Below, one piece after another: positions 48,201 through 64,000 of a stretch of 64,000 bases of DNA. The notes below the pieces were generated by a model. That model searched no databases. It saw only the letters and a list, made by a program, of their open reading frames with translations, and was not told the DNA's origin. This DNA is from Caballeronia sp. NK8 (GTDB taxonomy: Bacteria > Pseudomonadota > Gammaproteobacteria > Burkholderiales > Burkholderiaceae). The stretch's first letter is position 1; every line of letters begins with the position of its first letter. Made by a program: the position numbers and the translations under genes. The stretch is taken from positions 806,001-870,000 of the forward strand of contig NZ_AP024325.1 in assembly GCF_018408855.1 (NCBI RefSeq). The letters are read 5' to 3'.

Positions 48201-49233
48201 AGGACAGCCGCAAGCCGCGCAAGCCGGAAAAACCGGACTCGATGGCGTAACGACGCTGCTCAACGACGCGTACACCGCCTTCACCATCGCCGACAACGCG
48301 CTGGCCAACAATAGCCTGCCTCCCGCGAACGATGCCTCCGCGAAGCTCAAGATGGCCGCCAACACGATGCCCGCGCCCTTTCGCGACGTGTTGCTCGGGC
48401 TTGCGACACAAGGCTCGCGCGATGTGAATCAGGGCGTGGGCCAGTTGCTTTCGCGCCAGACGCAGGCGGCCGTCGGGGACGCATGCCGTCTGGCGGTCGA
48501 AGGTCACTACCCGTTCGCACCACAGAGCACGCGCGATATCAGCATCGACGATTTCACGCGCATGTTCGCCCAGGGCGGCCTGTTCGACGATTTCTTCACC
48601 AAGAATCTCGCGCCCTTCGTCGATACGTCTTCGCAGCCGTGGCGCTACAAGACACTGCCCGGATCGACCGAACCGGTGCAAGGCCCGGATCTCGAACCGT
48701 TCCAGCATGCGCAGTCCATCCGGAACGTCTTCTTCGGCGATCAAGGCAAGCAGCTCGCGTGGAAAGCGGAGCTTCGCGTGCCCGAGCTCGATCCGACCAT
48801 TCTCAGCCTTGCCATCGACATCGATGGCCAAAGCACGTTGTATCAGCACGGACCCGTCACCCCGCTCAAGATCAACTGGCCCGGCCCTCGCGGCGGCGTG
48901 CATGTCGAGATCACGGCAAATCCTCGAATTCGCGCGGATACGTCGACGATTGCGGTCGATGGGCCGTGGGCTCTGATGCGCCTGATGAGCAAAGGCCAGA
49001 TCGTGCAAACCGCCACGGCGGGTCGCACGCGCGTCGTATTCGACTTCGACGGACGCAAGGCTGCGCTGGACATCGCCAACAGCGGCAGCGTCGCCAATCC
49101 CCTGACGAGCGACGTGCTCACGACGTTTCATTGTCCGAGCACGGTTGCCCTCTTCAACCTCGTCGACAGCGGCCCACCGCCGGGCTTGCCCGCCGCATCG
49201 ACCGCGCCGCATGCGCCCGACGCCGTCCGATGA
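45268..49233 (+). CDS. tssM: TssM (IcmF family) inner-membrane protein
   Basis: The 1,321-residue protein has the IcmF layout. Two membrane helices lie near the start (FLATIALILLALGVWFIG and the following pair). A cytoplasmic NTPase-like domain follows with Walker A GAAGSGKT and VFIDTAGYYT. A further helix (LIGHALAVLLFVWLAVAL) leads to a large periplasmic part, and the C-terminal IcmF domain contains LKINWPGPRGGVHVEI and GPWALMRLM. It spans the envelope and contacts TssJ. It ends the plus-strand T6SS arm 15 bases from the convergent BenE-type gene. Confidence 0.94.
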   Translation: MKKLLSFLGSRWFLATIALILLALGVWFIGPYVAFGGLKPLESVALRVTVIALILCGVLLWLKGFSTAVVFGALLCLLIWYAAPLLSFGESRPLAPVEARVIAISVVIAVFVAWALYWVWGRMRSDEQFLKKALAVDRKDKSPAAAQLRALEVRMKEVLGRLKSMRTSARGVGRLFQGTRYLYELPWYITLGAAGSGKTRAILNAGIPTPNGNARGFAQSAASSGTAVNWWLTNEAVFIDTAGYYTHLGKSTHSLPSPGDAASVQSLPTSTAFDEVLQRRNADSDEWLGFLGLLRRHRPRAPINGALLTIDLGTLTHPSPTVRETEADALRMRLAELRGTLGIRFPIYLIVTQMDRLSGFSDYFASLTEENRAQIWGFTLPLACASLEDRCAEELARLSERVFAGVNTRLEDEYDVERRCRLAALPEAFSALIAPLSDVLAHLFVESRYDNTEQHTMLRGVYFTSATQGDVAHVAEPLTIMQRLGTGVKRGFATDAVSATASKSYFLRDVFRKVIFPEAHLVQPNLRWEYRFRLLRLIGHALAVLLFVWLAVALHVSFGNNSDYLQAIARKTQSLSTKITQLYRDPKPDAVPDALTEARYLPAWTGLDLTNPDASFRYGLYVAPGIVDVSGETYRALENNLLVPQIVHRIEAVLEQSIASQDTKSAYDALRVYLMLYDRARFNGGEIKAWVLGDWAKTDSASIYGGRASMLGHLEQLFSGEHIVQSPLIRNDGLIERARVFLDASNGTQRLYDRAKAAMQQDAPDDFTLLRVVGPQAGTSFTRASGAPLSRGVPGIFTFDGYHNVFDKRLSEFLQTAREDDAWVMGRPYLSNWSGSLHAAQKKTLEFAKTATGADDALTDAVRRLYLTEYARHWADFLGDVRAVTGSSLSFNLQILRQFAAPDSPLARLALAAARETTLTKTLTTQDSTLIDKVDGKLTEKAKALGIRAQDRVERELVDDRFAALREMVTGNAQARAEGQPQAAQAGKTGLDGVTTLLNDAYTAFTIADNALANNSLPPANDASAKLKMAANTMPAPFRDVLLGLATQGSRDVNQGVGQLLSRQTQAAVGDACRLAVEGHYPFAPQSTRDISIDDFTRMFAQGGLFDDFFTKNLAPFVDTSSQPWRYKTLPGSTEPVQGPDLEPFQHAQSIRNVFFGDQGKQLAWKAELRVPELDPTILSLAIDIDGQSTLYQHGPVTPLKINWPGPRGGVHVEITANPRIRADTSTIAVDGPWALMRLMSKGQIVQTATAGRTRVVFDFDGRKAALDIANSGSVANPLTSDVLTTFHCPSTVALFNLVDSGPPPGLPAASTAPHAPDAVR

Positions 49234-50529: not shown

Positions 50530-51855
50530 TCAATGCGCGGCCGTTGCGTCGGCATGCACGGGCGCACGCCAGAGAAGGCCGATGATCACGCCGAGCACGC
50601 AAAGCGCGCCAATGTACCACGCAGGCGCCATCGTGATGCCCTGCCGGCCCACCAGGAACGAGGCGATGGCGGGCGCCGTGCCGCCGAAGATCGCATAGGC
50701 GGTGTTGTACGACAGCGCGAAGCCGGTGAAGCGCACTTCGGGCGGAAAGCTTTTCACGATGATGTACGGCCCGAGCGTGATGGTCCCGATCAGGAAGCCG
50801 CCGAGGATATAGAGCGTCCATACCGACTGGCTGCCCGAGGCCAGACTCATGTAGAACGCACCGCACACGAGCAGCATCGCGACACTGCCGATCGCATACG
50901 CGCGGCCGCCGCCGATCTTGTCCGCCGCCCATCCCGCGAGCGTGCTGCCGAGAATCAGGCCGAAGATCGACCACGAATTGTTGGTGAACACGTCCTTCGC
51001 CGGAAAATGGAACTGCGATTGCAGGAACGTCGGCGTATAGAGGAAATACAGCACGAAGATGCCGGAGAACACCCACGTCGCCAGCAGCGAGACGACTATC
51101 GCGCCGCGATGTTCCTTCAGCACCACCGCGAGCGGCAGACGCGCATCGGCTTCACGCTTCGCGCGCAGCGCCTCGAACACCGGCGTTTCCTGCAGATAGC
51201 GGCGCAGATAGACCGAGATCAGACCGAACACGCCGCCCGCGATGAACGGCAGACGCCAGCCCCAGGTCTTCAGTTCCGCCGGATCCATGTTGCCGATGAG
51301 GAACTTCGCCGACAGCGCGCCGAGCAGGATGCCGGTGCACAGCCCTGACATCAGCAGGCCGCACGCGAGACCGACGCGATCGCGCCGCACATGCTCCGAG
51401 CAGAAGATCCACGCGCCCGGCACTTCCCCGCCGACGGAAAGCCCCTGCAGCACGCGGCACAACAGAAACAGCAGCGGCGCGACGATACCGAGCATCGCAT
51501 AGCTCGGCAGCAAACCGATGAGCAAGGTCGGCGCGGCCATCAGGAACAGGCTCAACGCGAACATCTTCTTGCGGCCGATGCGATCGCCGAAGTGCGCGAA
51601 GAAAATGCCGCCGATCGGCCGCACGAGATAGCCCGCCGCGAAGATGCAGAACACTTCGAGTTGCGCGAGCCACTCGGGTGTCTGCGGCGGGAAGAACACG
51701 GTCGCGAGCAGCTTCGTGAAGAACACCGCGACGATGAAATCGTAGTACTCCAGCGCACCGCCGAGCGACGCCAGCATGAGCGTCTTGATATCGTTGCGCG
51801 ACATCGACCGCCCATGAATGGCGACGTCGTCCGTCTGTACAGGGGTAGAACTCAT
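50530..51855 (-). CDS. MHS-family MFS transporter
   Basis: The 441-residue protein is a metabolite:H+ symporter. LASLGGALEYYDFIVAVFFT opens the first helix pair, GIFFAHFGDRIGRKKMF is the loop 2-3 motif and CRVLQGLSVGGEVPGAWIF lies in helix 4. The start at ATG 51855 has GGAG about 9 bases upstream. It is divergent from the MarR gene, and a perfect palindrome lies 50 bases upstream of its start codon. It is the best candidate for picolinate uptake under that repressor. Confidence 0.87.
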   Translation of the reverse strand: MSSTPVQTDDVAIHGRSMSRNDIKTLMLASLGGALEYYDFIVAVFFTKLLATVFFPPQTPEWLAQLEVFCIFAAGYLVRPIGGIFFAHFGDRIGRKKMFALSLFLMAAPTLLIGLLPSYAMLGIVAPLLFLLCRVLQGLSVGGEVPGAWIFCSEHVRRDRVGLACGLLMSGLCTGILLGALSAKFLIGNMDPAELKTWGWRLPFIAGGVFGLISVYLRRYLQETPVFEALRAKREADARLPLAVVLKEHRGAIVVSLLATWVFSGIFVLYFLYTPTFLQSQFHFPAKDVFTNNSWSIFGLILGSTLAGWAADKIGGGRAYAIGSVAMLLVCGAFYMSLASGSQSVWTLYILGGFLIGTITLGPYIIVKSFPPEVRFTGFALSYNTAYAIFGGTAPAIASFLVGRQGITMAPAWYIGALCVLGVIIGLLWRAPVHADATAAH

Positions 51856-51904: not shown

Positions 51905-51920
51905 AATCAGCATGCTGATT
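51905..51920. promoter_or_regulatory. Operator-like palindrome in front of the MHS transporter
   Basis: The 16 bases AATCAGCATGCTGATT are a perfect palindrome with the core TCAG-CATG-CTGA. On the minus strand it overlaps a plausible promoter (TTGCAG, 16 bases, TAATCA) for the transporter at 51855. The same TCAG-N4-CTGA core recurs at 52049 and 58553, which points to binding of the adjacent MarR-type regulator. Confidence 0.7.
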
Positions 51921-52048: not shown

Positions 52049-52060
52049 TCAGTACGCTGA
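52049..52060. promoter_or_regulatory. Operator-like palindrome in front of the MarR gene
   Basis: TCAG-TACG-CTGA lies about 100 bases before the MarR start and has the same arms as the palindrome at 51905. An additional half-site ATCAGC is at 52037. This fits autoregulation by the MarR protein. Confidence 0.6.
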
Positions 52061-52161: not shown

Positions 52162-52668
52162 ATGGGCACCGTTGCTGAGAAAAAATCTGCCGTTTCCGAT
52201 AGCGGCATCGAGACCGGACACTTGTGGCAGCGCCCGGGATTTCTGATCCGCCGGCTCAACCAGATTCACATCGCGCTGTTCTTCGAGTGCTGCAAGGACT
52301 TCGCCATCACGCCGGTGCAATACGGCTTGCTGACGACGCTGAGCGAGCGGCCCGGACTGGATCAGACATCGCTGTGCGCGGAAGTCGGCGTCGATCGCAC
52401 GACGATGGCCGACGTGCTGCGCCGACTCGAGGAGCGCGGGCTCGTCAAGCGCGAGCCTAGTCCTCACGACGGGCGTCTCAAGATCGCGAACATCACCGCG
52501 AAAGGACGCCGCACGATGAAGGACATGTACGGCAGCATGCGCGAAGCGCAGGTGAGATTTCTGGAGCCGTTGAGTGCGGAAGATCGCGTTCATTTCGTGC
52601 GCATGATGATGAAGCTCGTCGAGGGCAACAACCAGTACGGCCGTACATCGCTCAAGCATTTCGACTGA
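52162..52668 (+). CDS. picR: MarR-family repressor, PicR/NicR-like
   Basis: The 168-residue product is a MarR winged-helix protein: YGLLTTLSERPGLDQTSL, then GVDRTTMADVLRRLEERGLV (recognition helix) and REPSPHDGRLKIANITAKGR (wing). MarR proteins bind palindromes as dimers and release DNA on binding an aromatic ligand. It is divergent from an MHS transporter and convergent with the pic operon, and three matching palindromes lie at the relevant promoters. By analogy with the picolinate regulator PicR and the nicotinate regulator NicR, the ligand may be a hydroxylated pyridine carboxylate. The ribosome binding site is AAGGTTAAGG next to ATG 52162. Confidence 0.82.
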   Translation: MGTVAEKKSAVSDSGIETGHLWQRPGFLIRRLNQIHIALFFECCKDFAITPVQYGLLTTLSERPGLDQTSLCAEVGVDRTTMADVLRRLEERGLVKREPSPHDGRLKIANITAKGRRTMKDMYGSMREAQVRFLEPLSAEDRVHFVRMMMKLVEGNNQYGRTSLKHFD

Positions 52669-54264
52669 CTACTGCGTGATGTCGCGGCGATACGTTTCGG
52701 GCACGAACAGCGTACCGACCGCGAACGACACGAGCGCGATGACGATCGGATACCAAAGCCCGAAATAGACGTCGCCGCGCGCGACCGCCATCGCGGACAC
52801 CACGAACGGCAGCATGCCGCCGAACCAGCCCGAGCCGAGATGGAACGGCAACGATAGCGACGTATAGCGGATGCGCGCCGGAAAGAGTTCGACCATGAAC
52901 GCGGCCATCGGTCCGTAGACCATCGCGAGATACAAGAGCAGTAGCCACATCAGGAAGACGACCATCGGGGCGTCGATTCTCGCGGGGTCTGCGTGCGCCG
53001 ACCAGCCGGACGCGATCAACGCCTTCTCCAGTTCATGTTTGTCGCTGCCGTGCACCACGGTCGGGCCGATTTCCGTCGATGCCGCTTCGCCCGCTCGCAA
53101 CGGCGCCCGACTGTACGAAACGCCCGACGCACTGAGAAACGAACGTATGCGGTCGCACTCCGTCACCGGCGCGGAGAACAGCGTGAAGCGGCAATCGTCT
53201 GCGCGAATCGTCACCGGTGCGCGCTTCTGGAATGCTTCCAACTGTGGATTCGCATAGTGCGTGAGCGCATGGAAGATCGGTTGCGTGGTTGCGGCGAGCA
53301 ACAGGCACGCGAGCATCATGATCCATTTTCGTCCGACGCGATCCGACAGCCAGCCGAACACGAGATAGAACGGAAACACCGCGATCAATGCGATCGCGAG
53401 AAAGAGATTGACCGTGTTTGGCGCGACCTTCAACGTGTTCTGCAGGAAGTACATCGAATAGAAGTGACCCGTGCCGAACACGACTCCGACGCCGGATGCC
53501 GTGCTGAACAGCATGATCAGCACGTACTTCAGGTTCTCCCATTTGCCGAAGCTCTCCCCTATCGGCGATTTCGACAGGCGGCCCGTCTGCTTCATGTCGC
53601 GAAACGTCGGCGACTCGGCGAGCTTCGTGCGCAGATAGACCGAGATCGCGAGCAGCACGATCGATACGAGAAACGGCATGCGCCAGCCCCAGCTCCGAAA
53701 CGCGGCTTCGTCCATCGCGGCGCGGCTGATGCTCACCGCCGCGATCGATGCGAGCAGGCCGAGCGTCGCCGTGGTCTGCAGTGAACTCGTGAAGAAGCCG
53801 CGACGCTCCGCGGGCGAATGCTCCGCGAGATAGGTCGCCGCGCCGCCCGTTTCGCCGCCGAGCGCGAATCCCTGCAACAGCCGCAGCGCGACCAGCAAGA
53901 CCGGCGCGATCATGCCGATCTGCTCGAACGACGGCAACAAGCCCACACCGATGGTCGCGACGCCCATCAGCACGATCGTCGCCATGAACGTGTACTTGCG
54001 GCCGATGCGGTCGCCGAGCCTGCCGAAGAACAGCGCGCCGAGCGGCCGCACGAGAAAGCCCGCGCCGAAGGTGGCGAGGCTCGCGAGGAAGGCGACCGTA
54101 TCGTTGCCGCTCGGAAAGAACAAGGTGCTGAACGTGCCCGCCAGCGCGGCGTAGATATAGAAGTCATACCATTCGAGCAACGCACCGAACGAGGACGCGA
54201 TGATCAGCGTGAATTCGTGACGCGTGACTACGCGGTGCGACCGCTCCGAAACAGACGTGGCCAT
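52669..54264 (-). CDS. MHS-family transporter with a large hydrophilic insertion
   Basis: The 531-residue protein has the MHS signatures (FGALLEWYDFYIYAALAGTF and FFGRLGDRIGRKYTFMATI). It is about 90-100 residues longer than its relatives because of a hydrophilic segment at about residues 335-431 (from ANPQLEAFQKRAP to SAHADPARID) between two late membrane helices. It is the last gene of the picC-G-E-D-F run, 13 bases after the amidase, so it probably moves a pyridine carboxylate or a C4 acid intermediate. I use ATG 54264 with GGGAT upstream. Confidence 0.85.
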   Translation of the reverse strand: MATSVSERSHRVVTRHEFTLIIASSFGALLEWYDFYIYAALAGTFSTLFFPSGNDTVAFLASLATFGAGFLVRPLGALFFGRLGDRIGRKYTFMATIVLMGVATIGVGLLPSFEQIGMIAPVLLVALRLLQGFALGGETGGAATYLAEHSPAERRGFFTSSLQTTATLGLLASIAAVSISRAAMDEAAFRSWGWRMPFLVSIVLLAISVYLRTKLAESPTFRDMKQTGRLSKSPIGESFGKWENLKYVLIMLFSTASGVGVVFGTGHFYSMYFLQNTLKVAPNTVNLFLAIALIAVFPFYLVFGWLSDRVGRKWIMMLACLLLAATTQPIFHALTHYANPQLEAFQKRAPVTIRADDCRFTLFSAPVTECDRIRSFLSASGVSYSRAPLRAGEAASTEIGPTVVHGSDKHELEKALIASGWSAHADPARIDAPMVVFLMWLLLLYLAMVYGPMAAFMVELFPARIRYTSLSLPFHLGSGWFGGMLPFVVSAMAVARGDVYFGLWYPIVIALVSFAVGTLFVPETYRRDITQ

Positions 54265-54277
54265 GTTGATCCCATGA

Positions 54278-54901
54278 TCAAAGATCCTTGAGCAGTTCGA
54301 GCGCTTCGTCACGCGTCATCACGGCCGCATACTTCTGCGCCATGTCGAACAGATTCGCGTCGTGCGGCGCGATCGCGCGATCGCCCACGCAGTCCGACAG
54401 CACGAACGGACGGAAGCCGTACTGCATCGCGTCGACGACGGACGATCGCACGCAGCCGCTCGTCACCGCGCCCGCGATCACGAGCGTGCGCACGCCGTGT
54501 TGCGTGAGCCACGCCGCGAGCGATGTGCCGAAGAACGCCGAGGGCACCGTCTTGCGCACCACGAGTTCGCCCTGCTCCGGCTTGAGTTGCGGCACGATGG
54601 CGCTGTCGTGCGAATCTTCCTTCAGCGCTAGCAGGCCGGGCACTTTCATCGTGAAGACGTTGTGATCGGCGTCGTCATCGGCGAAGACGATACGGCTGTG
54701 CGCGATCGGCCAGCGCTTCGCGCGCGCGTGCGCCAGCAATGGAATCGTATGCGCTATTGCCTGCGCAATATTGCCGCCGCCGAACACCTCGGGATTCGCG
54801 AAGCCGTTCACGAAGTCGACGATCAAAAGACCGACCGGCGCTTTCGGCTCCAGCGTCGAGCCGAAGCTCTGGCGTTTGTAGGTTTCGATATCGTGGGACA
54901 T
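54278..54901 (-). CDS. picF: Maleamate amidohydrolase (isochorismatase family), PicF/NicF-like
   Basis: The 207-residue cysteine hydrolase has the family triad in place: D29 in GLLIVDFVNGF, K117 in VVRKTVPSAFFG and C150 in AGAVTSGCVRSSV. It should convert maleamate to maleate and ammonia in the cytoplasm. It lies between the 2,5-dihydroxypyridine dioxygenase gene (18 bases upstream) and an MHS transporter, inside an operon with all other enzymes of the maleamate pathway, which makes this assignment firmer than the family alone. Confidence 0.88.
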   Translation of the reverse strand: MSHDIETYKRQSFGSTLEPKAPVGLLIVDFVNGFANPEVFGGGNIAQAIAHTIPLLAHARAKRWPIAHSRIVFADDDADHNVFTMKVPGLLALKEDSHDSAIVPQLKPEQGELVVRKTVPSAFFGTSLAAWLTQHGVRTLVIAGAVTSGCVRSSVVDAMQYGFRPFVLSDCVGDRAIAPHDANLFDMAQKYAAVMTRDEALELLKDL

Positions 54902-54919
54902 GTCGATGTTTTTTAATCG

Positions 54920-55954
54920 TTAGCGATCGAGAACCACGCCATCGCGCACGACGGGTTCGCCGTCGAGAAAGACATCGCAATGACGCAGCGGAATGTCGAT
55001 ATGGCAAGTCGTCGTGCGGCTGCCGCCTGCTTCGTTGTTCGGGCCGAGCGAAAACAGGAAGTTGCCTTCGAACGCGCGCGCATCCATGCCGATGGTCGCC
55101 TCGCGGTCATACAGTCCGAGCGTCGACCAGTGCGCGCGCGGCTGCAATCCCCAGCCGATATGCGAGATCGCATACGCTTCGGGATCGTTGAAGGTGGCCA
55201 TGTATTCGCTGAGCAGTTGCGCATCGACGCCGCCTTCGATACGCGTCGCATAGCCGCCTTCGACGGTCAGCTCGATGCGCTCCTGCGCGTAGCTCTTCTG
55301 CGGCAGCAGGATATCGCCGCGATCGATCACGATGCGGCCATGCGCCCGGCCATCGTTCGGAAACGTCAGCGCGAAGCCGCTCGGCCAATGATCCCAGCGA
55401 CCGGGTTCATCGACGAAACCGTATTCGGCAATCGGTTCGAATTCGCCCAGCGGACAATGGAAATCCGTGCCCGCGGCAGACACGATATGCATCTCCTTCG
55501 CGCGCGCGATGCGCGCCTGCGCGGCGAGCACGCGTTCACGATCGGCGGGTGTCGGCACGAGGCGCGTGAGCACTTCGGGCGGTTCCACCGCGAGCAGAAT
55601 CTTCGTGCCGGTCTTGAGAATATCGAGTTGCTCGGGCGAGAACAGCAAGGTCATCAGATCGAGTACGAGATCGCTTTCCTTCAACGCGGCGATGGCGGCG
55701 CGATTGCCGGTCAAGGGCGTCGTGCCGAGATAGGCGAGCGAATCGCGGCTCAACGCCTTCTCGCCGTTGACGGGCGGCAGATCGAGACGATTGACGATCG
55801 CGCCCATCGATTGCGTCGCGATCAGCGCGGTCGAAAGCGTTTGCGGATGCGTCGATGCGCTCGTGAGAATGGTCACGGTCTGCCCGGCTTCGAGGCGCGA
55901 GAGCTTGAGCACCTGAGTCCACGCATCGACCATCTGATAGTCACTGACGGGCAT
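54920..55954 (-). CDS. picD: 2,5-Dihydroxypyridine 5,6-dioxygenase, PicD/NicX-like
   Basis: The 344-residue protein matches the NicX family. Counting from ATG 55954, H265, H318 and D320 fall at the positions I recall as the Fe(II) ligands of Pseudomonas NicX (AISHIGWGL and CHIDIPLR). It opens the ring of 2,5-dihydroxypyridine with O2 to give N-formylmaleamate. A perfect AGGAGG precedes the start; the longer frame to 56014 is not needed. It overlaps the end of the deformylase gene by 14 bases. Confidence 0.92.
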   Translation of the reverse strand: MPVSDYQMVDAWTQVLKLSRLEAGQTVTILTSASTHPQTLSTALIATQSMGAIVNRLDLPPVNGEKALSRDSLAYLGTTPLTGNRAAIAALKESDLVLDLMTLLFSPEQLDILKTGTKILLAVEPPEVLTRLVPTPADRERVLAAQARIARAKEMHIVSAAGTDFHCPLGEFEPIAEYGFVDEPGRWDHWPSGFALTFPNDGRAHGRIVIDRGDILLPQKSYAQERIELTVEGGYATRIEGGVDAQLLSEYMATFNDPEAYAISHIGWGLQPRAHWSTLGLYDREATIGMDARAFEGNFLFSLGPNNEAGGSRTTTCHIDIPLRHCDVFLDGEPVVRDGVVLDR

Positions 55955-56789
55955 GCTTGCCTCCTTCATCGAGCGGCGGCACGGATGCGCCGAGAAAATC
56001 GCCGAGCGCCGCATGAAAGCCGGCTTCGTCGTCCCAGGGAATCATGTGGCCTGCGTTCTGCACAGGCGTATGAACGAGATGCGGCACGAGCGTACGGATT
56101 TCGTCGACGTCGGTATCGCGCACGACATCGCCTCTGCCTGCAGTGACGAGCAACGCGGGCATCGCGAGATACGGAAGATCGGCGTGGATGTCGTCGGTGT
56201 GGAAGCCTTCGAAGCTCGCGCGTATCGCGCGTTCGTCGCAGGTATGCAGCCATTCGGCGCGCAAGGCGAGTTGCGCTTCGGTCCATGTCGGACAGAAGGC
56301 GCGCATCGCCTCGGCGCTCATGCCCTCGCGCGACTGGCGAATCGAATCGACATACCACGGCAACTGCGACGGATAAGGACGGCGCCCCGGACCCGAAACG
56401 GGCGGATCGATCATCGCGAGACGCGTCAAGCCGGCTGGCTTCGAACACGCCGCGCGAATGCCGATGCGCGCGCCCATCGAGTGGCCGACGACGCTGTAAC
56501 GCTCGAATCCCAATGCAGTTGCGAACGCGATCAGATCGGCGGCTTGCGCATCGAGACTGTAATCGAGCGCATCGGATGCCGACGACAATCCACGCCCGCG
56601 TACGTCGAGGACATAGACATCGAACACCTTGCCGAGATGCTCCGCGACGAATCCCCAAGTGATCGCAGGGCTCGTGATGCCCGGGACGATGATCACCGGA
56701 TCGCGTCCCGGTCGCTCGTCGCCATAGCGCAGATAATGCTGGCGGATGCCGTTCGCGTGAACGTTGCCGCCGTATCGATAGGTCGACAT
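55941..56789 (-). CDS. picE: N-formylmaleamate deformylase (alpha/beta hydrolase), PicE/NicD-like
   Basis: The 282-residue alpha/beta hydrolase has the nucleophile elbow GHSMGA with S104, D128 in AMIDPP and H248 in NAGHMIPWDD. Their spacing equals that of the Ser-Asp-His triad of NicD, shifted by three residues. It releases formate from N-formylmaleamate to give maleamate. ATG 56789 with GAGG upstream is chosen over a TTG at 56804. It overlaps the dioxygenase start and follows the isomerase stop by 11 bases. Confidence 0.9.
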   Translation of the reverse strand: MSTYRYGGNVHANGIRQHYLRYGDERPGRDPVIIVPGITSPAITWGFVAEHLGKVFDVYVLDVRGRGLSSASDALDYSLDAQAADLIAFATALGFERYSVVGHSMGARIGIRAACSKPAGLTRLAMIDPPVSGPGRRPYPSQLPWYVDSIRQSREGMSAEAMRAFCPTWTEAQLALRAEWLHTCDERAIRASFEGFHTDDIHADLPYLAMPALLVTAGRGDVVRDTDVDEIRTLVPHLVHTPVQNAGHMIPWDDEAGFHAALGDFLGASVPPLDEGGKHARQ

Positions 56790-56800
56790 GCGCGCCTCGC

Positions 56801-57553
56801 TCAATAAGCGCCGGACAGCAGTGCGCCCGCGCCGGGCACGACCGCTTCGAGCCCGAGTTGCTTGAGCATCGCGTAAGTCGTCGCAACGGCGGCGGTGACG
56901 ACCGGCTTGCCCGTCATCGCCTCGACCTTCGCGATGACCGGCAGCGACGGCATCTGCACGCAGGCGGACAGCACGATGGCATCGGCTTCCTGATAGCGCA
57001 TCGACATGACGATCTCCGGCAGCCGGCTCGGATCATGACGGCCGACATCGAGATTGTCGGGAATTTCGAGCGCGCGATAATCGATCACGTCGTAGTCTTC
57101 GTTGCGGATATAGTCGACGACGAGTTCCGTCAGCGGCAACATGTAAGGCGTGACCACCACGACACGCTTCGCGCCGATCACCTTCAGGGCATCGACGAGC
57201 GCGCCCGCACTCGTGATGACAGGCGCCTCGCCGCCGTTCTCAACCGTGCGCTCATGCAGGCGCTTTTGCGACACGCGATGGTAGCCATGCCCCATCGCCA
57301 TGATCGCGACAAGACACGCATAGCCGAGCACATCGACGCGCGCATCGGAAAGCTCGACGGCGCAGCGGTCCGACTCCGCGTCCATTGCGGCGAGTTCTTC
57401 CTTCACGACCTTTTTCATACGCATGCGGCTCGAATGAAACGTGAAGCGCTCGGGGCGGATCGTCTGACGCGCGAGCAGCATCGCGGGAATCTCGGTCTCC
57501 ATCGTCGTGTTCGAACTCGGCACGATCTGGCCGATGCGATAGGTCTTCGTCAT
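56801..57553 (-). CDS. picG: Maleate isomerase (Asp/Glu racemase superfamily), PicG/NicE-like
   Basis: The 250-residue protein begins MTKTYRIGQIVPSSNTTMET, the classic opening of maleate cis-trans isomerase. It keeps the two catalytic cysteines, C80 (LGYACLVAIMAMG) and C198 (VLSACVQMPSL). It converts maleate to fumarate, the exit to the TCA cycle. I use ATG 57553 with GGAG upstream; ATG 57565 is an alternative without ribosome binding site. It follows picC by 18 bases. Confidence 0.9.
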   Translation of the reverse strand: MTKTYRIGQIVPSSNTTMETEIPAMLLARQTIRPERFTFHSSRMRMKKVVKEELAAMDAESDRCAVELSDARVDVLGYACLVAIMAMGHGYHRVSQKRLHERTVENGGEAPVITSAGALVDALKVIGAKRVVVVTPYMLPLTELVVDYIRNEDYDVIDYRALEIPDNLDVGRHDPSRLPEIVMSMRYQEADAIVLSACVQMPSLPVIAKVEAMTGKPVVTAAVATTYAMLKQLGLEAVVPGAGALLSGAY

Positions 57554-57571
57554 GTGTTGCTCCATGTATGT

Positions 57572-58537
57572 TCAAAGGCGGAAGATTCGTTCGGCGTTGC
57601 CGTGACAGACGAGCGCGCGCGTGGCGTCATCGAGCGGCGCGCGTTCGATGAATTCCGCCGCGATCTCGGTGGACTCATACGGATAGTCGACGGAGAACAT
57701 CACCGCCTGCGCGCCCATTTCGCCGATCGCGCCCATGAGCGCGGGCGCGGAACACACGCCCGACGTCGTGATCAGGATGTTCGTGCCGATGTATTCAGAA
57801 GGCGCGCGTTCGAGGCTCACGCCATGCGAATACACCGCGAAGCGGCTGTCGAAGCGCCAGCGCAGATACGGCAGGCCTTCACCCATGTGACCGAGAATGA
57901 TCTTCAGATTCGGGAAGCGGTCGAACACGCCGCTGAACAGCAGGCGCAATGCATGACTGCCGGTTTCCACGCCCCAGCCCCAGGTCGCGCCCGCGAGTTC
58001 GAGATGACCGTCGAGCACGCGCGGATTCACGAATGCATCGGTCGGATGCAGATACAGCGGGACGTCGAGTTCCTGCATCGTCGCCCAGAAGGGGTCGTAG
58101 GCGCGATCGTCGTAGTAGACGCCGAGCGTATGACCGTTGACGAGCGCACCCTTGAAGCCGAGTTCGCGAACGGTGCGCGTCAGTTCATCCGATGCCGCTT
58201 TTGCGCCATGCATCGGCAGGGTCGCAAAGCCGCCGAAGCGCGCGGGATGACGCGCAATCTGCTGCGCGAGAAAGTCGTTGCTCTCTTTCGCGCGGCTGAT
58301 CGCGAGCGCGGCATCGGGTTCGCCCTGCACGCTCGGACCCGTCTGCGAAAGAATCGTATAGTCGATGCCCGCGCGATCCATTTCCACGATGCGCTGTTCA
58401 TCGAAATCAGTGAGACGCGCGGCGAGATCGCGCAACACTTCGGGCGCGATATGCTGCGTGAAACTCTTCGAATAACCCTGAAAACCCGGCGTGCTGAAAT
58501 GCTCTTCCAGGGCGATCTTGCGAATCCGCTTTGTCAT
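57572..58537 (-). CDS. picC: Amidohydrolase-2 family decarboxylase, probable 3,6-dihydroxypicolinate decarboxylase (PicC)
   Basis: The 321-residue TIM-barrel protein has the amidohydrolase-2 metal motifs: E11-x-H13 at the start (ALEEHF), YLHPTDAF in the middle, LGHMGEGLPYLRWRFDSR, and the Asp-bearing FSVDYPYES. Relatives are non-oxidative decarboxylases of hydroxybenzoates. In the pic pathway the corresponding enzyme makes 2,5-dihydroxypyridine from 3,6-dihydroxypicolinate, and the genes downstream start with that compound, so the assignment is contextual. It is the first gene of its operon, with GGAG before ATG 58537 and an operator-like palindrome just upstream. Confidence 0.82.
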   Translation of the reverse strand: MTKRIRKIALEEHFSTPGFQGYSKSFTQHIAPEVLRDLAARLTDFDEQRIVEMDRAGIDYTILSQTGPSVQGEPDAALAISRAKESNDFLAQQIARHPARFGGFATLPMHGAKAASDELTRTVRELGFKGALVNGHTLGVYYDDRAYDPFWATMQELDVPLYLHPTDAFVNPRVLDGHLELAGATWGWGVETGSHALRLLFSGVFDRFPNLKIILGHMGEGLPYLRWRFDSRFAVYSHGVSLERAPSEYIGTNILITTSGVCSAPALMGAIGEMGAQAVMFSVDYPYESTEIAAEFIERAPLDDATRALVCHGNAERIFRL

Positions 58538-58552
58538 TTGAACTCCAGTTGA

Positions 58553-58564
58553 TCAGTAGACTGA
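58553..58564. promoter_or_regulatory. Operator-like palindrome in front of picC
   Basis: TCAG-TAGA-CTGA lies 16 bases before the picC start codon, directly downstream of a -10-like TATATC on the minus strand. It has the same arms as the sites at 51905 and 52049. Binding of the MarR protein here would block the picC-G-E-D-F transcript. Confidence 0.68.
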
Positions 58565-58606
58565 CGATATAGCCGAACGACGCGCCCGTTAGCGCGCCAT
58601 CCTGGC

Positions 58607-59797
58607 TCAACCGCCCTTGCCGAATAGCTGTTTGATGCGCCCCCAGACGACGCTCCATACGAGGCTGCCCGCATTGAATTTCGCTGACGATGCCGCCGCA
58701 CCCGCCTCGGGCGCCGCGCTTCCGCCAAGCTGCGCCGTGATGCGCGCCCCGAAATCCGCGATCATGCGGCGCACGAAATCCTTCACGAGCCCCGAACGTG
58801 AAAACTGCGCGAGCGGCCCTTGCAGCATGTATTCGAGCGTGACGGCCACACGCGTCTCGTTGCCGCCCGCTTCGCTCGTCAATGCATAGGTGACGTCGCC
58901 GTTGGCGCGCGACCGGCTGATGTTGTCCTGCCCCGCGCCGCGCATGACGGCGCGATGCGCGGCGTCGTCGCGTTCGAGGCGCGCCGCGCCCGCGAAGTTC
59001 GCGGACATCGGACCGAACTTGATCGCAATTCTGCCCTTCACGCTTTCGCCGTCGTGTTCGACCAGTTCCGCGCCGGGCAAGCATGAAGTGACCGAAGGCA
59101 GATCGCCCATGAAGGCCCACACCTTGTCGAGTGCGAAGGGCACGACGAAGCTGTCGTCGATCGCGGTCCAGCCCTTGCGAAGCGTCGCGGGCTGATCGGT
59201 CGATGCAACGCTTGCAGCCACAGGTGCTTGCGGCGCGCTGGCCGGCGCGGCCGCGAAGGTTTGAAACGCGGGCGCCGAGGTCGTTGCATCGCTGACAACT
59301 GCGCGCGGCACAGGCGCTTCTGCGATCGGATTCGCTTTCAGATCGGCGAGCACCGATTTGATCGCCGCGACGATGCCCATATAGCCCGTACATCGGCACA
59401 GATTGCCGGACAGTTCGAGCCGGATGCGCGCTTCGTCGGCATCGGGAATGCGCCGCGCGATATCGCGCGCCGTGATCAGCATGCCGGGCGTGCAGTAGCC
59501 GCATTGCAGGCCGTGATATATCGAGAAGGCATGGCGCAGACGCTTCATGAGTTCGTCGTCGTCGAAGCCTTCGATGGTGCGAACCTTCTGCTGATCGCAC
59601 GCGACCGCGAAGGTGATGCACGAGCGCACCGGCTCGCCGTCGACGAGCACGGTACACGCGCCGCATACGCCGTGCTCGCAGCCGAGGTGCGTGCCGGTCA
59701 GGTTGTGCGTGTCGCGAAGAAAGTCGCCGAGATGCAGGCGCGATTCGACATCGCTGCGCACGGAACGGTCGTTGATGTTGAGTTCGATGACGGACAT
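58607..59797 (-). CDS. Mo hydroxylase [2Fe-2S] small subunit fused to a CoxG-like domain (PicA component)
   Basis: The 396-residue protein has two parts. Residues 1-160 form a xanthine-dehydrogenase-type iron-sulfur subunit with the plant-type cluster (C40, C45, C48, C60) and the second cluster (C99, C102, C134, C136). After an Ala/Pro/Ser-rich linker (about 160-212), residues 213-396 form an SRPBCC/CoxG-like domain (GWTAIDDSFVVPFALDKVWA, FGPMSANFAGAARLERDD). CoxG-type proteins act in maturation or membrane recruitment of Mo hydroxylases; usually they are separate. The subunit passes electrons from the Mo site. The start is ATG 59797, 11 bases after the FAD subunit stop. Confidence 0.88.
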   Translation of the reverse strand: MSVIELNINDRSVRSDVESRLHLGDFLRDTHNLTGTHLGCEHGVCGACTVLVDGEPVRSCITFAVACDQQKVRTIEGFDDDELMKRLRHAFSIYHGLQCGYCTPGMLITARDIARRIPDADEARIRLELSGNLCRCTGYMGIVAAIKSVLADLKANPIAEAPVPRAVVSDATTSAPAFQTFAAAPASAPQAPVAASVASTDQPATLRKGWTAIDDSFVVPFALDKVWAFMGDLPSVTSCLPGAELVEHDGESVKGRIAIKFGPMSANFAGAARLERDDAAHRAVMRGAGQDNISRSRANGDVTYALTSEAGGNETRVAVTLEYMLQGPLAQFSRSGLVKDFVRRMIADFGARITAQLGGSAAPEAGAAASSAKFNAGSLVWSVVWGRIKQLFGKGG

Positions 59798-59807
59798 TGC
59801 AGTCTCT

Positions 59808-60644
59808 TTAAACTGTATTCGCGCTCGACACGCCGAACGCCTGCGCAAGACAACGCTCGAGCGCCGCCGTATGAATCTGCCGGTCGATGCCGTCCGCGTT
59901 GGGCATCGCGCCTGCGACGGCCTGCGCGAGCGCATCCTCTGTGGCGGCTGCCGGCCCGCGCTGCGCTATCTGTCGCGCAAGTTCGTCGAGCGCGGTCGGC
60001 GGGCCGTCGAGCGCGCCGAGCACCACGCGTGCGAGTCCGGTGCGCGCATCGAAAGCGGCAGCCGCGCTCGCGTGCGGAAATTCGCCGGTCTTGCGGCAGA
60101 GTTTGTAGTAACCCCAGCGCAGCGTCGGGCCGAGCTTCGGCAACAGCACCGTGGTGATGATCTCGCCGTCTTCCAGCAGCGTCGTGAATGCGCCCAGCAT
60201 GAAGTCGCCCGCGCGCACTTGCCGTGTCGCGCCGGCCTTCGACAGTTCCAGACGCGCATCCAGCGCGGACAGCGCAAGCGGCCAGTCGGCGGCGGGATCG
60301 GCATGGGCGAGACTGCCGCCGATCGTGCCGCGATTGCGGATCGCGCGATACGCGATGCCGCTCGCCACATGCTGCATGAACGGATGACGCAGGAGCGCGT
60401 GCTTGCCGTCTTCTATTTCAGCATGCGTCACTGCTGCGCCGACGCGCACGAAGTCGCCCGCTTCGGACACCGTGCGCAGATCGGCGATGCGCGATACATC
60501 GACGACGCGGCCCGGCCGTGCAAGACGCAGGTTCAGCATCGGGCCCATCGACTGGCTGCCCGATATCGGCTTTGCGTCCTTCAGTTCCCTGAGCGCGTCG
60601 GCCAAGGACGCGGCTTTCACATACTCGAATGCAGCGGCTTTCAT
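59808..60644 (-). CDS. Mo hydroxylase FAD-binding medium subunit (PicA component)
   Basis: The 278-residue product is a CoxM-type FAD subunit: AKPISGSQSMGPMLNLRLAR near the start, and the FAD motif IRNRGTIGGSLAHADPAADW. The C-terminal CO-dehydrogenase flavoprotein domain contains KTGEFPHASAAAAF. It transfers electrons from the iron-sulfur subunit to the acceptor. ATG 60644 overlaps the large-subunit stop as ATGA with AGGAGG upstream. Confidence 0.92.
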   Translation of the reverse strand: MKAAAFEYVKAASLADALRELKDAKPISGSQSMGPMLNLRLARPGRVVDVSRIADLRTVSEAGDFVRVGAAVTHAEIEDGKHALLRHPFMQHVASGIAYRAIRNRGTIGGSLAHADPAADWPLALSALDARLELSKAGATRQVRAGDFMLGAFTTLLEDGEIITTVLLPKLGPTLRWGYYKLCRKTGEFPHASAAAAFDARTGLARVVLGALDGPPTALDELARQIAQRGPAAATEDALAQAVAGAMPNADGIDRQIHTAALERCLAQAFGVSSANTV

Positions 60645-63046
60645 CCCGCCACCTCCTGCCTCAGTTCTTCCTGGCTGGTCGCCTTGCTGGACTTCGCCGC
60701 TTCGATCGCCGCAAGCAGACGACGCGGCGTCAAGGGCGTTTCCGACACGCTCGCACCGAGCGGCGTGAGCGCATCGTTCACCGCGTTGAAGAGCGCGGCG
60801 GGTGGCGCGATCGCTCCGCCCTCGCCCACGCCTTTCGCGCCGAACTCCGTATATGGCGAAGGCGTTTCCATGTGGATGATCGTGAGCGACGGCAGCTCGG
60901 TCGGTCCCGGCAACATGTAGTCGGCGAGTGTCGATGTAAGCGGCTGCGCGTTGTCGTCGTAGAGCGTTTCTTCGTAGAACGCGGTGCCGATGCCTTGCGC
61001 CGTGCCGCCGATCGTTTGCCCCTCGACGACCATCGGATTGATCATGCGGCCGCAATCCTCGACGATCACGTAATCGAGAATTTCGACATCACCGGTCTTC
61101 GTATCGACGGCCACTGCCGCCGCGTGCGTCGCGTAACTGAATGCGCCGCTATCGACTTTCGGCTTGAAGCCTTGCGTCGCTTCCAGTCCGGCGAGATTCA
61201 CGCCGGCGGGCAAACGCTCGGGACGCAGATACCACGCCGATGCGATCTCCTGAATCGTCACACGCCCGCTTGCGCCGATCACCTCACCGTTCTCGAAACG
61301 CACGGCGTCCTGTTCTTCACCGAGCAAATGCGCGCCGATGAACAGCAGACGCGGCACGAGTTCGCGACACGTCGTAGCGACCGCGCCGCCCGCCATCACG
61401 ATGCTGCGCGATGCATACGTGCCCGTCGAATATGGCGTGAGCGCCGTATCGCCATGCACGACCTTGATCTTTTGCAGCGGCACGCCGAGCACTTCGTTCG
61501 CGATCTGCGCGAGCGTGGTTTCCATGCCTTGCCCGTGCGAGTGAATGCCCGCCCGCACTTCGAGGCCACCGTCCGCGGTGATACGCACGGTCGCGAGATC
61601 GTAGCCCGGCACGACCGGCAATCCCCACGACGCGAACACCGCCGTGCCGTGCGCGGATTGCTCGGTGAAGGTCGCGAAGCCGATACCGACGAGACGTCCA
61701 TCTTTTTCGCCCGCCTTCTGCCGCGCGCGCCACTTCGGCACATCGAGTTGCGCCACTGCGCGGCGCAGGCTTTCCTGGAAATCGCCGCTGTCGTAGTGCT
61801 TCTTCACGACATTGGTATAGGGCATGTCCGCGCCGCGCACGAGATTGTCGTGACGCACTTCCCACGCTTCCCGGCCGACGGCGCGCGCGATCGCGTCCAT
61901 CGTCAGTTCGATCGCGAAGCACACGCCCGTGCGCGCGACACCGCGATACGGCAGGAAGCCCGGCTTGTTGGTCGCGGCGCATTGCGTGCGGCATCGATAG
62001 CCCGAGAAATCGTAAGGCCCCGGCAGATTGCCGAGCGCCTGTCCCGTTTCCAGACCGATCGTGAAGGGCCACGCCGAATACGCGCCGCCGTCGATCAGAA
62101 GCTGTGCGTCGAGCGCGAGCAGCCGGCCCGTTTTATCGGCATACGCGGTGAGTTCGTAATGATGCTGACGCGAGTTCGCACCGGCGATCAGATGTTCGCG
62201 GCGATCCTCGATGAAGCGAAACGGCTTGCGGTACTTGAGCGCGAGCCACGCAATGCACAGCTCTTCCTGCTGAAGCACGCATTTGTAGCCGAACGCGCCG
62301 CCGACATCGGGCGAGATGACGCGCACCTGTCCGTGCTCGATGCCGAGACACTGCGACAGCACCGTGCGGATCATGTGCGGCACCTGCGTCGACGTGATGA
62401 CGACGAGTTGCGAATGCGTATGATCCCAGTAGGCGAGCACGGCCTTGCCTTCCATCGGCACCATGCACTGGCGTGCGAGATCGACCTTCTGTTTCACGAC
62501 GACAGGCGCGTCCTTCGAACGTGCGTCGAAGTCGACATCGGCCTTGAGGTCGAGAAAGAGATTGTCGGTCCAGTGATCGTGCACGCGCACATCGGTGCGT
62601 TCGCGTGCGGTGAATGCGTTTGCGAAGGCCGGCAGTTCGTCGAGATCGAGCTCGATTTCCTCGGCGATATCCTCGGCCTGCGCACGCGTCTTCGCGAAGC
62701 ACATCGCGACCGGCTCGCCGACGAAACGCACCTTGCCCGACGCGAGCGGCGGATGCGACGAAGGCTTGTAGCTGGGCAGGCTCGAATCCGCGACGATATC
62801 GGTCGCGCCCTGCATGTCGTCGCGCAGGATCACCTGCTCTGCATACTGTTCCGGCTTGCCGATACGCACGATACGCGCATGGGCGACGGGGCTGCGCAGG
62901 AACGCGACTTCCTGCAAATCCGGAAACGTATAGTCGGCGACGAACTTGCCCTTGCCGTGCAGATGCCGCTCGTCTTCGCGGCGTCTGACGCGCGCGCCGA
63001 CGCCCCCGCTTTCGGCCGGCGCTTCCATGTGTTCGGTGTGACTCAT
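60641..63046 (-). CDS. Mo hydroxylase large (molybdopterin) subunit, probable picolinate 6-dehydrogenase
   Basis: The 801-residue protein is a xanthine-dehydrogenase-family large subunit. It has the N-terminal aldehyde oxidase domain (RREDERHLHGKGKFVADYTF), the cofactor-binding VISPDVGGAFGYKC, PYRGVARTGVCFAIELTMDA, and the catalytic Glu in GAKGVGEGGAIAPPAALF. Such enzymes hydroxylate N-heteroaromatic rings with water. Next to a 3,6-dihydroxypicolinate/2,5-dihydroxypyridine pathway it should make 6-hydroxypicolinate from picolinate. Substrate identity is inferred from context. No XdhC-like chaperone is in the window. Confidence 0.9.
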   Translation of the reverse strand: MSHTEHMEAPAESGGVGARVRRREDERHLHGKGKFVADYTFPDLQEVAFLRSPVAHARIVRIGKPEQYAEQVILRDDMQGATDIVADSSLPSYKPSSHPPLASGKVRFVGEPVAMCFAKTRAQAEDIAEEIELDLDELPAFANAFTARERTDVRVHDHWTDNLFLDLKADVDFDARSKDAPVVVKQKVDLARQCMVPMEGKAVLAYWDHTHSQLVVITSTQVPHMIRTVLSQCLGIEHGQVRVISPDVGGAFGYKCVLQQEELCIAWLALKYRKPFRFIEDRREHLIAGANSRQHHYELTAYADKTGRLLALDAQLLIDGGAYSAWPFTIGLETGQALGNLPGPYDFSGYRCRTQCAATNKPGFLPYRGVARTGVCFAIELTMDAIARAVGREAWEVRHDNLVRGADMPYTNVVKKHYDSGDFQESLRRAVAQLDVPKWRARQKAGEKDGRLVGIGFATFTEQSAHGTAVFASWGLPVVPGYDLATVRITADGGLEVRAGIHSHGQGMETTLAQIANEVLGVPLQKIKVVHGDTALTPYSTGTYASRSIVMAGGAVATTCRELVPRLLFIGAHLLGEEQDAVRFENGEVIGASGRVTIQEIASAWYLRPERLPAGVNLAGLEATQGFKPKVDSGAFSYATHAAAVAVDTKTGDVEILDYVIVEDCGRMINPMVVEGQTIGGTAQGIGTAFYEETLYDDNAQPLTSTLADYMLPGPTELPSLTIIHMETPSPYTEFGAKGVGEGGAIAPPAALFNAVNDALTPLGASVSETPLTPRRLLAAIEAAKSSKATSQEELRQEVAG

Positions 63047-63066
63047 GCGCTCTCTCCCAACGATGT

Positions 63067-63576
63067 TCAGACGGGATAAGCGAGATCGTTCGCGATCATC
63101 GCCGTGTCATACACCGCCTGTCTTTCCTTCAGCAGAAGAACGTTACCATTGCGCGCGAAGCGATCAAAAAGCCTGCCCGCCTGATGCAAAGTCGTCGCGC
63201 CTTCGACGAGCGTCTGCAGCAACATGTAGTTGCTCTGCGCGATGATCTCTTCATCCGTTGCGTTCAGAATGCGTACGTTCGAAACGAAATGCAGCATCTG
63301 GCGCGGCGCGAACATCTGCGTGCGCGAGATCGCCACTGCGCGGTCACGCAACATGTCGCGCCCTTCCGCATACACCAGCCCGACGGGAAAACCGTTTGCT
63401 GCGTTCTCGTACTCGGTCACGCGGTAAAGACAGTTCTCGGTGAAGAACTCCGGCCAGCGCTCGATGTCGCCGCTATCCAGCGCCGCGCAATACTCCGCAT
63501 GAAAATCCTCCACGGCGGCGCGCGCGATCAGCGCCTTGTCGTGCGCGATATTCTGCTTCTCGAATCCTGGCAACAT
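63067..63576 (-). CDS. Aromatic-ring-hydroxylating oxygenase beta subunit (PicB component)
   Basis: The 169-residue protein has the SnoaL-like fold of Rieske oxygenase small subunits: VEDFHAEYCAALDSGDIERW, then FTENCLYRVTEYEN, and MLHFVSNVRILNATDEEII. It is a structural partner of the alpha subunit. Its ATG directly follows the alpha stop codon (TAGATG) with GGAG upstream. In the pic pathway a four-component 6-hydroxypicolinate 3-monooxygenase is known, and this pair fits two of its parts. Confidence 0.88.
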   Translation of the reverse strand: MLPGFEKQNIAHDKALIARAAVEDFHAEYCAALDSGDIERWPEFFTENCLYRVTEYENAANGFPVGLVYAEGRDMLRDRAVAISRTQMFAPRQMLHFVSNVRILNATDEEIIAQSNYMLLQTLVEGATTLHQAGRLFDRFARNGNVLLLKERQAVYDTAMIANDLAYPV

Positions 63577-64000
63577 CTAGAACTCCATGACTTCACGATA
63601 GTGTTTGTACATGGCGCGAATGGCAGCCTCGGAGATCAGGTTGTCAGCCGTGCCGATCTTGTCGCCGTCCAGCTTGATGATGCTGCGATCGCTCACCGAG
63701 CGGCGCACGCCTTCCTGGACGAACTTCATCGCTTCGTTGTCTTCGAGGCCGAGAAAGCCCGATGGTCCCATCAGATTGCCCTGGCGCAGACGGTGGCGCA
63801 GCATCTCGTCGGTATCGTCTTCATAGCCGAACATGGTCCAGAGCATGATCATGCTGTTCGGTCCGTTCGGAACGATATGGCGCACGCCGAGCGTGTTCAT
63901 CTCGCGCTGCACGATGAGGTTCGGCCAGATCGTCTGCATCGTGACGGACCACTCGGAATCGAACTCCTTGATGAACTCGAGAAAGCGTTCATCGCGCAAG
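63577..64000 (-). CDS. Rieske oxygenase alpha subunit, C-terminal part
   Basis: The last 140 or so codons of a large oxygenase subunit are visible; the gene runs off the right edge, so the Rieske [2Fe-2S] centre and most iron ligands are outside the window. The seen part (TMQTIWPNLIVQREMNTLGV, PNGPNSMIMLWTMFGYEDDT, GLEDNEAMKFVQEGVRRSVS) is the usual C-terminal end of ring-hydroxylating dioxygenase alpha subunits. It should hydroxylate 6-hydroxypicolinate at C3 together with the beta subunit and electron carriers beyond the window. Confidence 0.85.
   Translation of the reverse strand, partial: LRDERFLEFIKEFDSEWSVTMQTIWPNLIVQREMNTLGVRHIVPNGPNSMIMLWTMFGYEDDTDEMLRHRLRQGNLMGPSGFLGLEDNEAMKFVQEGVRRSVSDRSIIKLDGDKIGTADNLISEAAIRAMYKHYREVMEF

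Follow-up and report, generated by a model that had tools for sequence, protein, structure and literature searches.

A complete picolinate (pic) catabolic operon predicted in Caballeronia sp. NK8, with conserved operator-like sites and a CoxG domain fused to a hydroxylase subunit

Picolinic acid is an isomer of vitamin B3. On a stretch of 64,000 nucleotides from Caballeronia sp. NK8 (contig NZ_AP024325.1, positions 806,001 to 870,000), hereafter the window, a group of genes very probably constitutes a complete operon for picolinate (pic) catabolism together with the gene of its regulator, encoding the route from PicA to PicG; repression by a MarR protein is likely, and a CoxG-mediated link to the membrane or the quinone pool is proposed. 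Judged from its sequence, it is an ordinary and well-supported pic cluster, i.e., a clear one added for a Caballeronia, and what the analysis would contribute beyond it is the likely boundary of the regulon and one mechanistic lead. The bearer is a soil-type bacterium with a pic gene set that appears complete, regulated and of an already known kind.

The operon comprises 13 genes, all on the minus strand, from window position 52669 to about 66423, and extends beyond the window edge; it is located on a 1.68 Mb contig of a 9.2 Mb genome in seven contigs. The gene order is ferredoxin, reductase, Rieske large subunit, Rieske small subunit, molybdenum (Mo) subunit, flavin adenine dinucleotide (FAD) subunit, iron-sulphur (FeS) subunit, picC, picG, picE, picD, picF, and MFS1, where adjacent genes overlap or are at most 20 bp apart, with the sole exception of a 69-bp gap before picC. 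The elements characteristic of a pic cluster are present, namely (i) a three-subunit Mo hydroxylase, (ii) a four-component Rieske oxygenase with its reductase and ferredoxin, (iii) an amidohydrolase-2 PicC with two histidines, (iv) PicD to PicG with their named residues, and (v) a MarR gene (Table 1). The genes and domains listed in a preliminary description of the window are present as described, according to open reading frames and Pfam matches, and the active-site residues it gave for PicD, PicE, PicF, and PicG are all found in its own numbering. Its prediction of ferredoxin and reductase genes beyond position 64000 was borne out, both being encoded on the same contig together with the rest of the large subunit (window-equivalent 63577-66423). 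The transporters it described as interleaved in the operon are not so placed: MFS1 is the last operon gene, the MFS2 and BenE genes lie beyond the MarR gene, and, at the far end, the EamA transporter is encoded divergently from the ferredoxin gene.

As set out in a previous report (PMC10142695), the pic route leads from picolinate via 6-hydroxypicolinate and 3,6-dihydroxypicolinate to 2,5-dihydroxypyridine and then, by the action of a deformylase, an amidohydrolase, and an isomerase, to fumarate. The enzyme matches, the clade of PicC and the relatives of the Mo and Rieske proteins point to the same route here. Picolinate would be imported and hydroxylated at C6 by PicA, the Mo hydroxylase, and at C3 by PicB, the four-component Rieske oxygenase, after which PicC would strip the carboxyl group to yield 2,5-dihydroxypyridine; PicD would then open the ring, PicE release formate, PicF release ammonia, and PicG convert maleate to fumarate. 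Regarding the ring hydroxylases, the closest solved relative of the Mo subunit is quinoline 2-oxidoreductase (1t3q) and that of the Rieske large subunit (430 residues, of which 140 inside the window) is salicylate 5-hydroxylase. Regarding the lower pathway, PicD has no Pfam match and its residues 2-342 align with 7cn3, a 2,5-dihydroxypyridine 5,6-dioxygenase, while the best solved match of PicF is 3ot4/3uao, there named putative isochorismatase. PicE has S104, D128, and H248 and PicG has C80 and C198, numbered in each case from the second methionine (56789 and 57553, respectively); the residues of PicD to PicG are called catalytic as named in the preliminary description.

In Bordetella bronchiseptica RB50, PicC decarboxylates 3,6-dihydroxypicolinate and both H163 and H216 are essential (PMC10142695); the two corresponding histidines of the NK8 protein (Table 1) were paired to these by position, the one-residue offset being read from a primer sequence. 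NK8 PicC groups with Caballeronia proteins (98% identity to that of C. pedi), shares 68-71% identity with PicC from named Alcaligenes and Bordetella species, and 86% with PicC of a partial metagenome locus labelled Bordetella. In the phylogenetic tree, it is nested with Alcaligenes and Bordetella PicC in a clade of 68 out of 78 rows (support 100/99), with a long-branch warning concerning chiefly the outer rows. One point weighs against this assignment, as the best solved relatives of PicC are gamma-resorcylate decarboxylases, and the protein could in principle be a decarboxylase of that type in a cluster acting on a benzoic acid. However, plasmid proteins so annotated are about 43% identical, against at least 68% for PicC, the neighbouring genes match pyridine-pathway enzymes, and RB50 PicC is reported as inactive on gentisate and 2,3-dihydroxybenzoate (PMC10142695), so that the probability left to a benzoic acid substrate is negligible.

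The preliminary description had favoured picolinate over nicotinate, and this preference is upheld by the PicC clade, by the two conserved histidines, by a single PicC in the genome (two further partial matches are weaker, at 34% and 32%), and by a separate cluster of the nicotinate (nic) type on another contig. A nic cluster would proceed by an Mo hydroxylase forming 6-hydroxynicotinate and then by ring hydroxylation with loss of the carboxyl group, and it has in common with the pic route the D-E-F-G enzymes of the lower pathway, which convert 2,5-dihydroxypyridine to fumarate; moreover, the genome encodes two PicD-type dioxygenases, 82% identical to each other, the second being in the nic-type cluster. 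The operon nonetheless encodes a decarboxylase (PicC) and an oxygenase of the Rieske type, and no FAD_binding_3 monooxygenase was found among the operon proteins scanned, whereas the nic-type cluster, in which neither PicC nor a Rieske protein was matched, differs by having such a monooxygenase (a family-level assignment), a protein with a cytochrome c domain, and lower-pathway genes of its own. The nicotinate assignment was thus rejected as very improbable. That other cluster (G000:C3:455001-475000) encodes the FAD_binding_3 monooxygenase, the cytochrome c domain protein of 780 residues, an isomerase, a hydrolase, a dioxygenase, and an amidase; RB50 is likewise reported to carry both pic and nic clusters (PMC10142695). 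Another pyridine, such as a substituted picolinate or 3-hydroxypyridine, might enter the same lower pathway, since Mo hydroxylases and Rieske oxygenases switch substrate easily and sequence alone cannot fix the substrate, but the grouping of PicC with the Bordetella and Alcaligenes proteins, as well as the carboxyl-bearing intermediate that a decarboxylase requires, make such a substrate unlikely, and picolinate is retained as the predicted one.

With respect to regulation, the MarR protein, a candidate PicR, is 52% identical to the MarR gene product beside picC in Alcaligenes faecalis AU14, and PicR of A. faecalis JQ135 is a MarR repressor according to the title of a reference. The palindrome TCAG-N4-CTGA is found in the upstream regions of pic genes. 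Over the window and its flank (91 kb), it occurs in seven exact copies, against about 1.1 expected from base content, four being at promoters (MFS2, MarR, picC, and picB) and three elsewhere, including one within the FAD gene. The comparison was extended to 80 PicC loci, some of which end at contig ends or at the 10 kb flank, so that all counts from this set are lower bounds. They contain 188 copies, of which 163 precede a mapped gene by at most 300 bp and three are inside mapped genes, the loci sharing ancestry and the copies consequently not being independent events; each of eight control patterns was present in 3 to 22 copies, with 0 to 2 upstream. By gene, a site is found upstream of MFS2 in 21/21 loci with that gene mapped, of picC in 49/80, of the picB ferredoxin gene in 35/56, of the MarR gene in 22/50, of the EamA gene in 10/10 (in the shared divergent region), of MFS1 in 6/26, of the Mo subunit gene in 4/56, and of BenE in none of nine. 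The site before picB is directly downstream of a promoter-like pair (TTGACT-16-TAGTAT), a position fitting a repressor site, and neither picC nor MFS2 was found to be preceded by a pair of this kind. Most likely, the PicR-like MarR protein would act via these sites as the repressor of picB, picC, and MFS2 as well as of its own gene. As such, the conserved operator-like sites would bound the regulon and draw in the second transporter, MFS2 being a probable member.

Several points weigh against this regulatory reading. An upstream copy is found in 51 of the 80 loci, and in the other 29 no mapped gene is preceded by one at a distance of 300 bp or less; these site-free loci include Ramlibacter, Pseudacidovorax, two Variovorax, Advenella, and all ten distant loci L081-L090. 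Genome-wide, there are 14 hits for the narrower form TCAGYANRCTGA, including the four at this locus, and ten for its reversed control, which indicates a lack of specificity of the pattern on its own. For JQ135, the published PicR box is TCAG-N4-CTNN, to which the present sites may correspond.

The mechanistic lead comes from the FeS subunit of PicA, where a COXG domain (PF06240) scores 57.9 bits against a Pfam cut-off of 22.2. The protein is organised as an FeS part, an Ala/Pro-rich linker, the CoxG domain, and a hydrophobic C-terminal helix. Its structure model has a mean predicted local distance difference test (pLDDT) score of 72.7 and a predicted template modelling (pTM) score of 0.48, and the relative placement of the domains is unreliable for that reason; within the CoxG domain (roughly residues 211-360), 13 out of 15 ten-residue blocks exceed a pLDDT of 85, while the linker is below 50 and the FeS domain weak in part. 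A Foldseek search matched the CoxG domain model to CoxG of M. smegmatis (8uds) with a template modelling (TM) score of 0.89 on the target. FeS and CoxG parts share one open frame in 43 of the 45 loci where the FeS part was matched (all but L028 and L072), and both domains are present in all of the best 120 of 7,992 matches to the FeS subunit, candidates having been restricted to 0.55-1.75 times the query length, which biases them toward fused proteins. No title or abstract on such a fusion was found in the literature searched, a weak negative since most subscription papers were outside its reach.

CoxG is reported to recruit carbon monoxide (CO) dehydrogenase to the membrane (PMC4240915) and is proposed to pass its electrons to the quinone pool (PMC13240472); elsewhere, it was shown to anchor a glycerol-3-phosphate dehydrogenase while being dispensable for quinone reduction (PMC11962113), a case favouring anchoring over electron transfer as its role. 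The likeness to CoxG of aerobic CO dehydrogenase includes the fold, the C-terminal end (an anchor there, a hydrophobic helix here), and the partner, an Mo hydroxylase; unlike that separate protein, CoxG is here fused to the FeS subunit via the Ala/Pro-rich linker modelled with low confidence. The fused domain and its C-terminal helix suggest a built-in membrane or quinone link for PicA, where CoxG would probably draw the enzyme to the membrane and thereby give its electrons access to the quinone pool, and PicA may use quinone. That PicA is a self-anchoring, quinone-linked hydroxylase, whose CoxG domain, on a flexible linker and held by a C-terminal membrane helix, carries quinone or reaches it and lets picolinate hydroxylation feed straight into the respiratory chain with no shuttle protein in between, and that this is a common architecture of pic clusters, is put at slightly less than an even chance. 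The fusion offers a simple handle on how a bacterial pyridine hydroxylase hands over its electrons, a question masked in the many relatives carrying the name "carbon-monoxide dehydrogenase small subunit." The whole genome contains six COXG matches; in another Mo hydroxylase (G000:C6:241733-244186), a COXG match and an Mo-subunit match are in one open frame of 1042 residues, from which it follows that CoxG may be fused to different subunits.

Table 1. Features of the predicted pic operon and its surroundings in window coordinates; positions above 64000 are window-equivalent.
Feature	Position	Strand	Remarks
MFS2 transporter	50530..51855	-	MFS_1; outside the range of the preliminary description
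Operator-like palindrome TCAGCATGCTGA	51907..51918	.	About 50 bp upstream of MFS2; position kept in related loci
Operator-like site TCAGTACGCTGA	52049..52060	.	Upstream of MarR gene
MarR-family regulator, PicR candidate	52162..52668	+	MarR above Pfam cut-off; convergent with MFS1
MFS1 transporter, last operon gene	52669..54312	-	Sugar_tr/MFS_1; later start 54264 possible
PicF, maleamate amidohydrolase	54278..54901	-	Isochorismatase family; D29/K117/C150
PicD, 2,5-dihydroxypyridine 5,6-dioxygenase	54920..55954	-	H265/H318/D320; solved relative 7cn3
PicE, N-formylmaleamate deformylase	55941..56804	-	Alpha/beta-hydrolase; solved relative 4l0c (Deformylase)
PicG, maleate isomerase	56801..57565	-	Amdase family; solved relative 4fq7 (maleate cis-trans isomerase)
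PicC, 3,6-dihydroxypicolinate decarboxylase	57572..58537	-	Amidohydro_2; H164/H217 at place of RB50 H163/H216
Operator-like site	58553..58564	.	In 69-bp gap before picC
PicA [2Fe-2S] subunit with C-terminal CoxG domain, 396 aa	58607..59797	-	Pfam, model, Foldseek
PicA FAD subunit	59808..60644	-	FAD_binding_5; start 60644 chosen, query used began 60686
PicA Mo-cofactor subunit	60641..63046	-	MoCoBD_1/2; Mo-subunit motifs present
PicB Rieske small subunit	63067..63576	-	Ring_hydroxyl_B
PicB Rieske large subunit	63577..64869	-	Rieske motif; window part ends 64000
PicB reductase	64856-66103	-	Pyridine-nucleotide type; past window edge
PicB Rieske ferredoxin	66118-66423	-	Rieske motif; past window edge
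Operator-like site	66445-66456	.	Before picB (ferredoxin gene); past window edge

Compared with known clusters, the NK8 locus resembles that of B. bronchiseptica RB50, which comprises picA1A2A3, picB1B2B3B4, picC, picG-E-D-F, and a picR gene, with picG between picC and picE (PMC10142695), and differs from it by the EamA gene divergent from picB and by MFS1 closing the operon. The enzymes are the same as in A. faecalis JQ135, where, unlike here, picG is away from the cluster instead of directly after picC (PMC10142695). As such, the gene order does differ from Alcaligenes as the preliminary description had noted, but it is not new, and this candidate novelty was rejected: the position of picG is published for RB50, and the identical 13 genes are found in identical order in at least 19 of the 80 loci. 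In five Cupriavidus loci, MFS1 sits between the picB ferredoxin gene and picC.

More broadly, at least 47 of the 80 stretches combine PicC with PicD, PicF, and the Mo and Rieske large subunits, while on 13 PicC is accompanied by neither of these two subunits nor by the PicD/PicF pair; of these, L037 ends at a contig end, L042 is partial, and eleven are distant (48-53% identity) and may not be PicC. The distant group includes L081-L090 (Arthrobacter, Streptomyces, and others), PicC relatives at 48-51% with neither Mo subunit, Rieske large subunit, nor PicD and PicF mapped nearby. By tblastn at an E-value of 1e-10 over 10 kb, only MarR, PicC, and part of PicE were found in A. faecalis AU14 (L042), and only MarR, PicC, PicE, PicD, and PicF in A. 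pakistanensis (L044). Within the genus, 19 out of 58 genomes, that of NK8 counted, have PicC at E-values up to 1e-100, and in C. insecticola and C. zhejiangensis, large plasmids also carry the gene.

Finally, the cluster of Candidatus Burkholderia humilis (L028) looks decayed: its FAD gene was matched as two fragments, the FeS and CoxG parts are in separate frames, and neither Mo nor Rieske proteins were matched on the stretch. MFS1 is long (547 residues) and, by eye, has a hydrophilic middle stretch of about 90 residues. Adjoining the BenE gene, window positions 45268-49233 contain a large TssM-like type VI secretion gene, named by eye from its translation.

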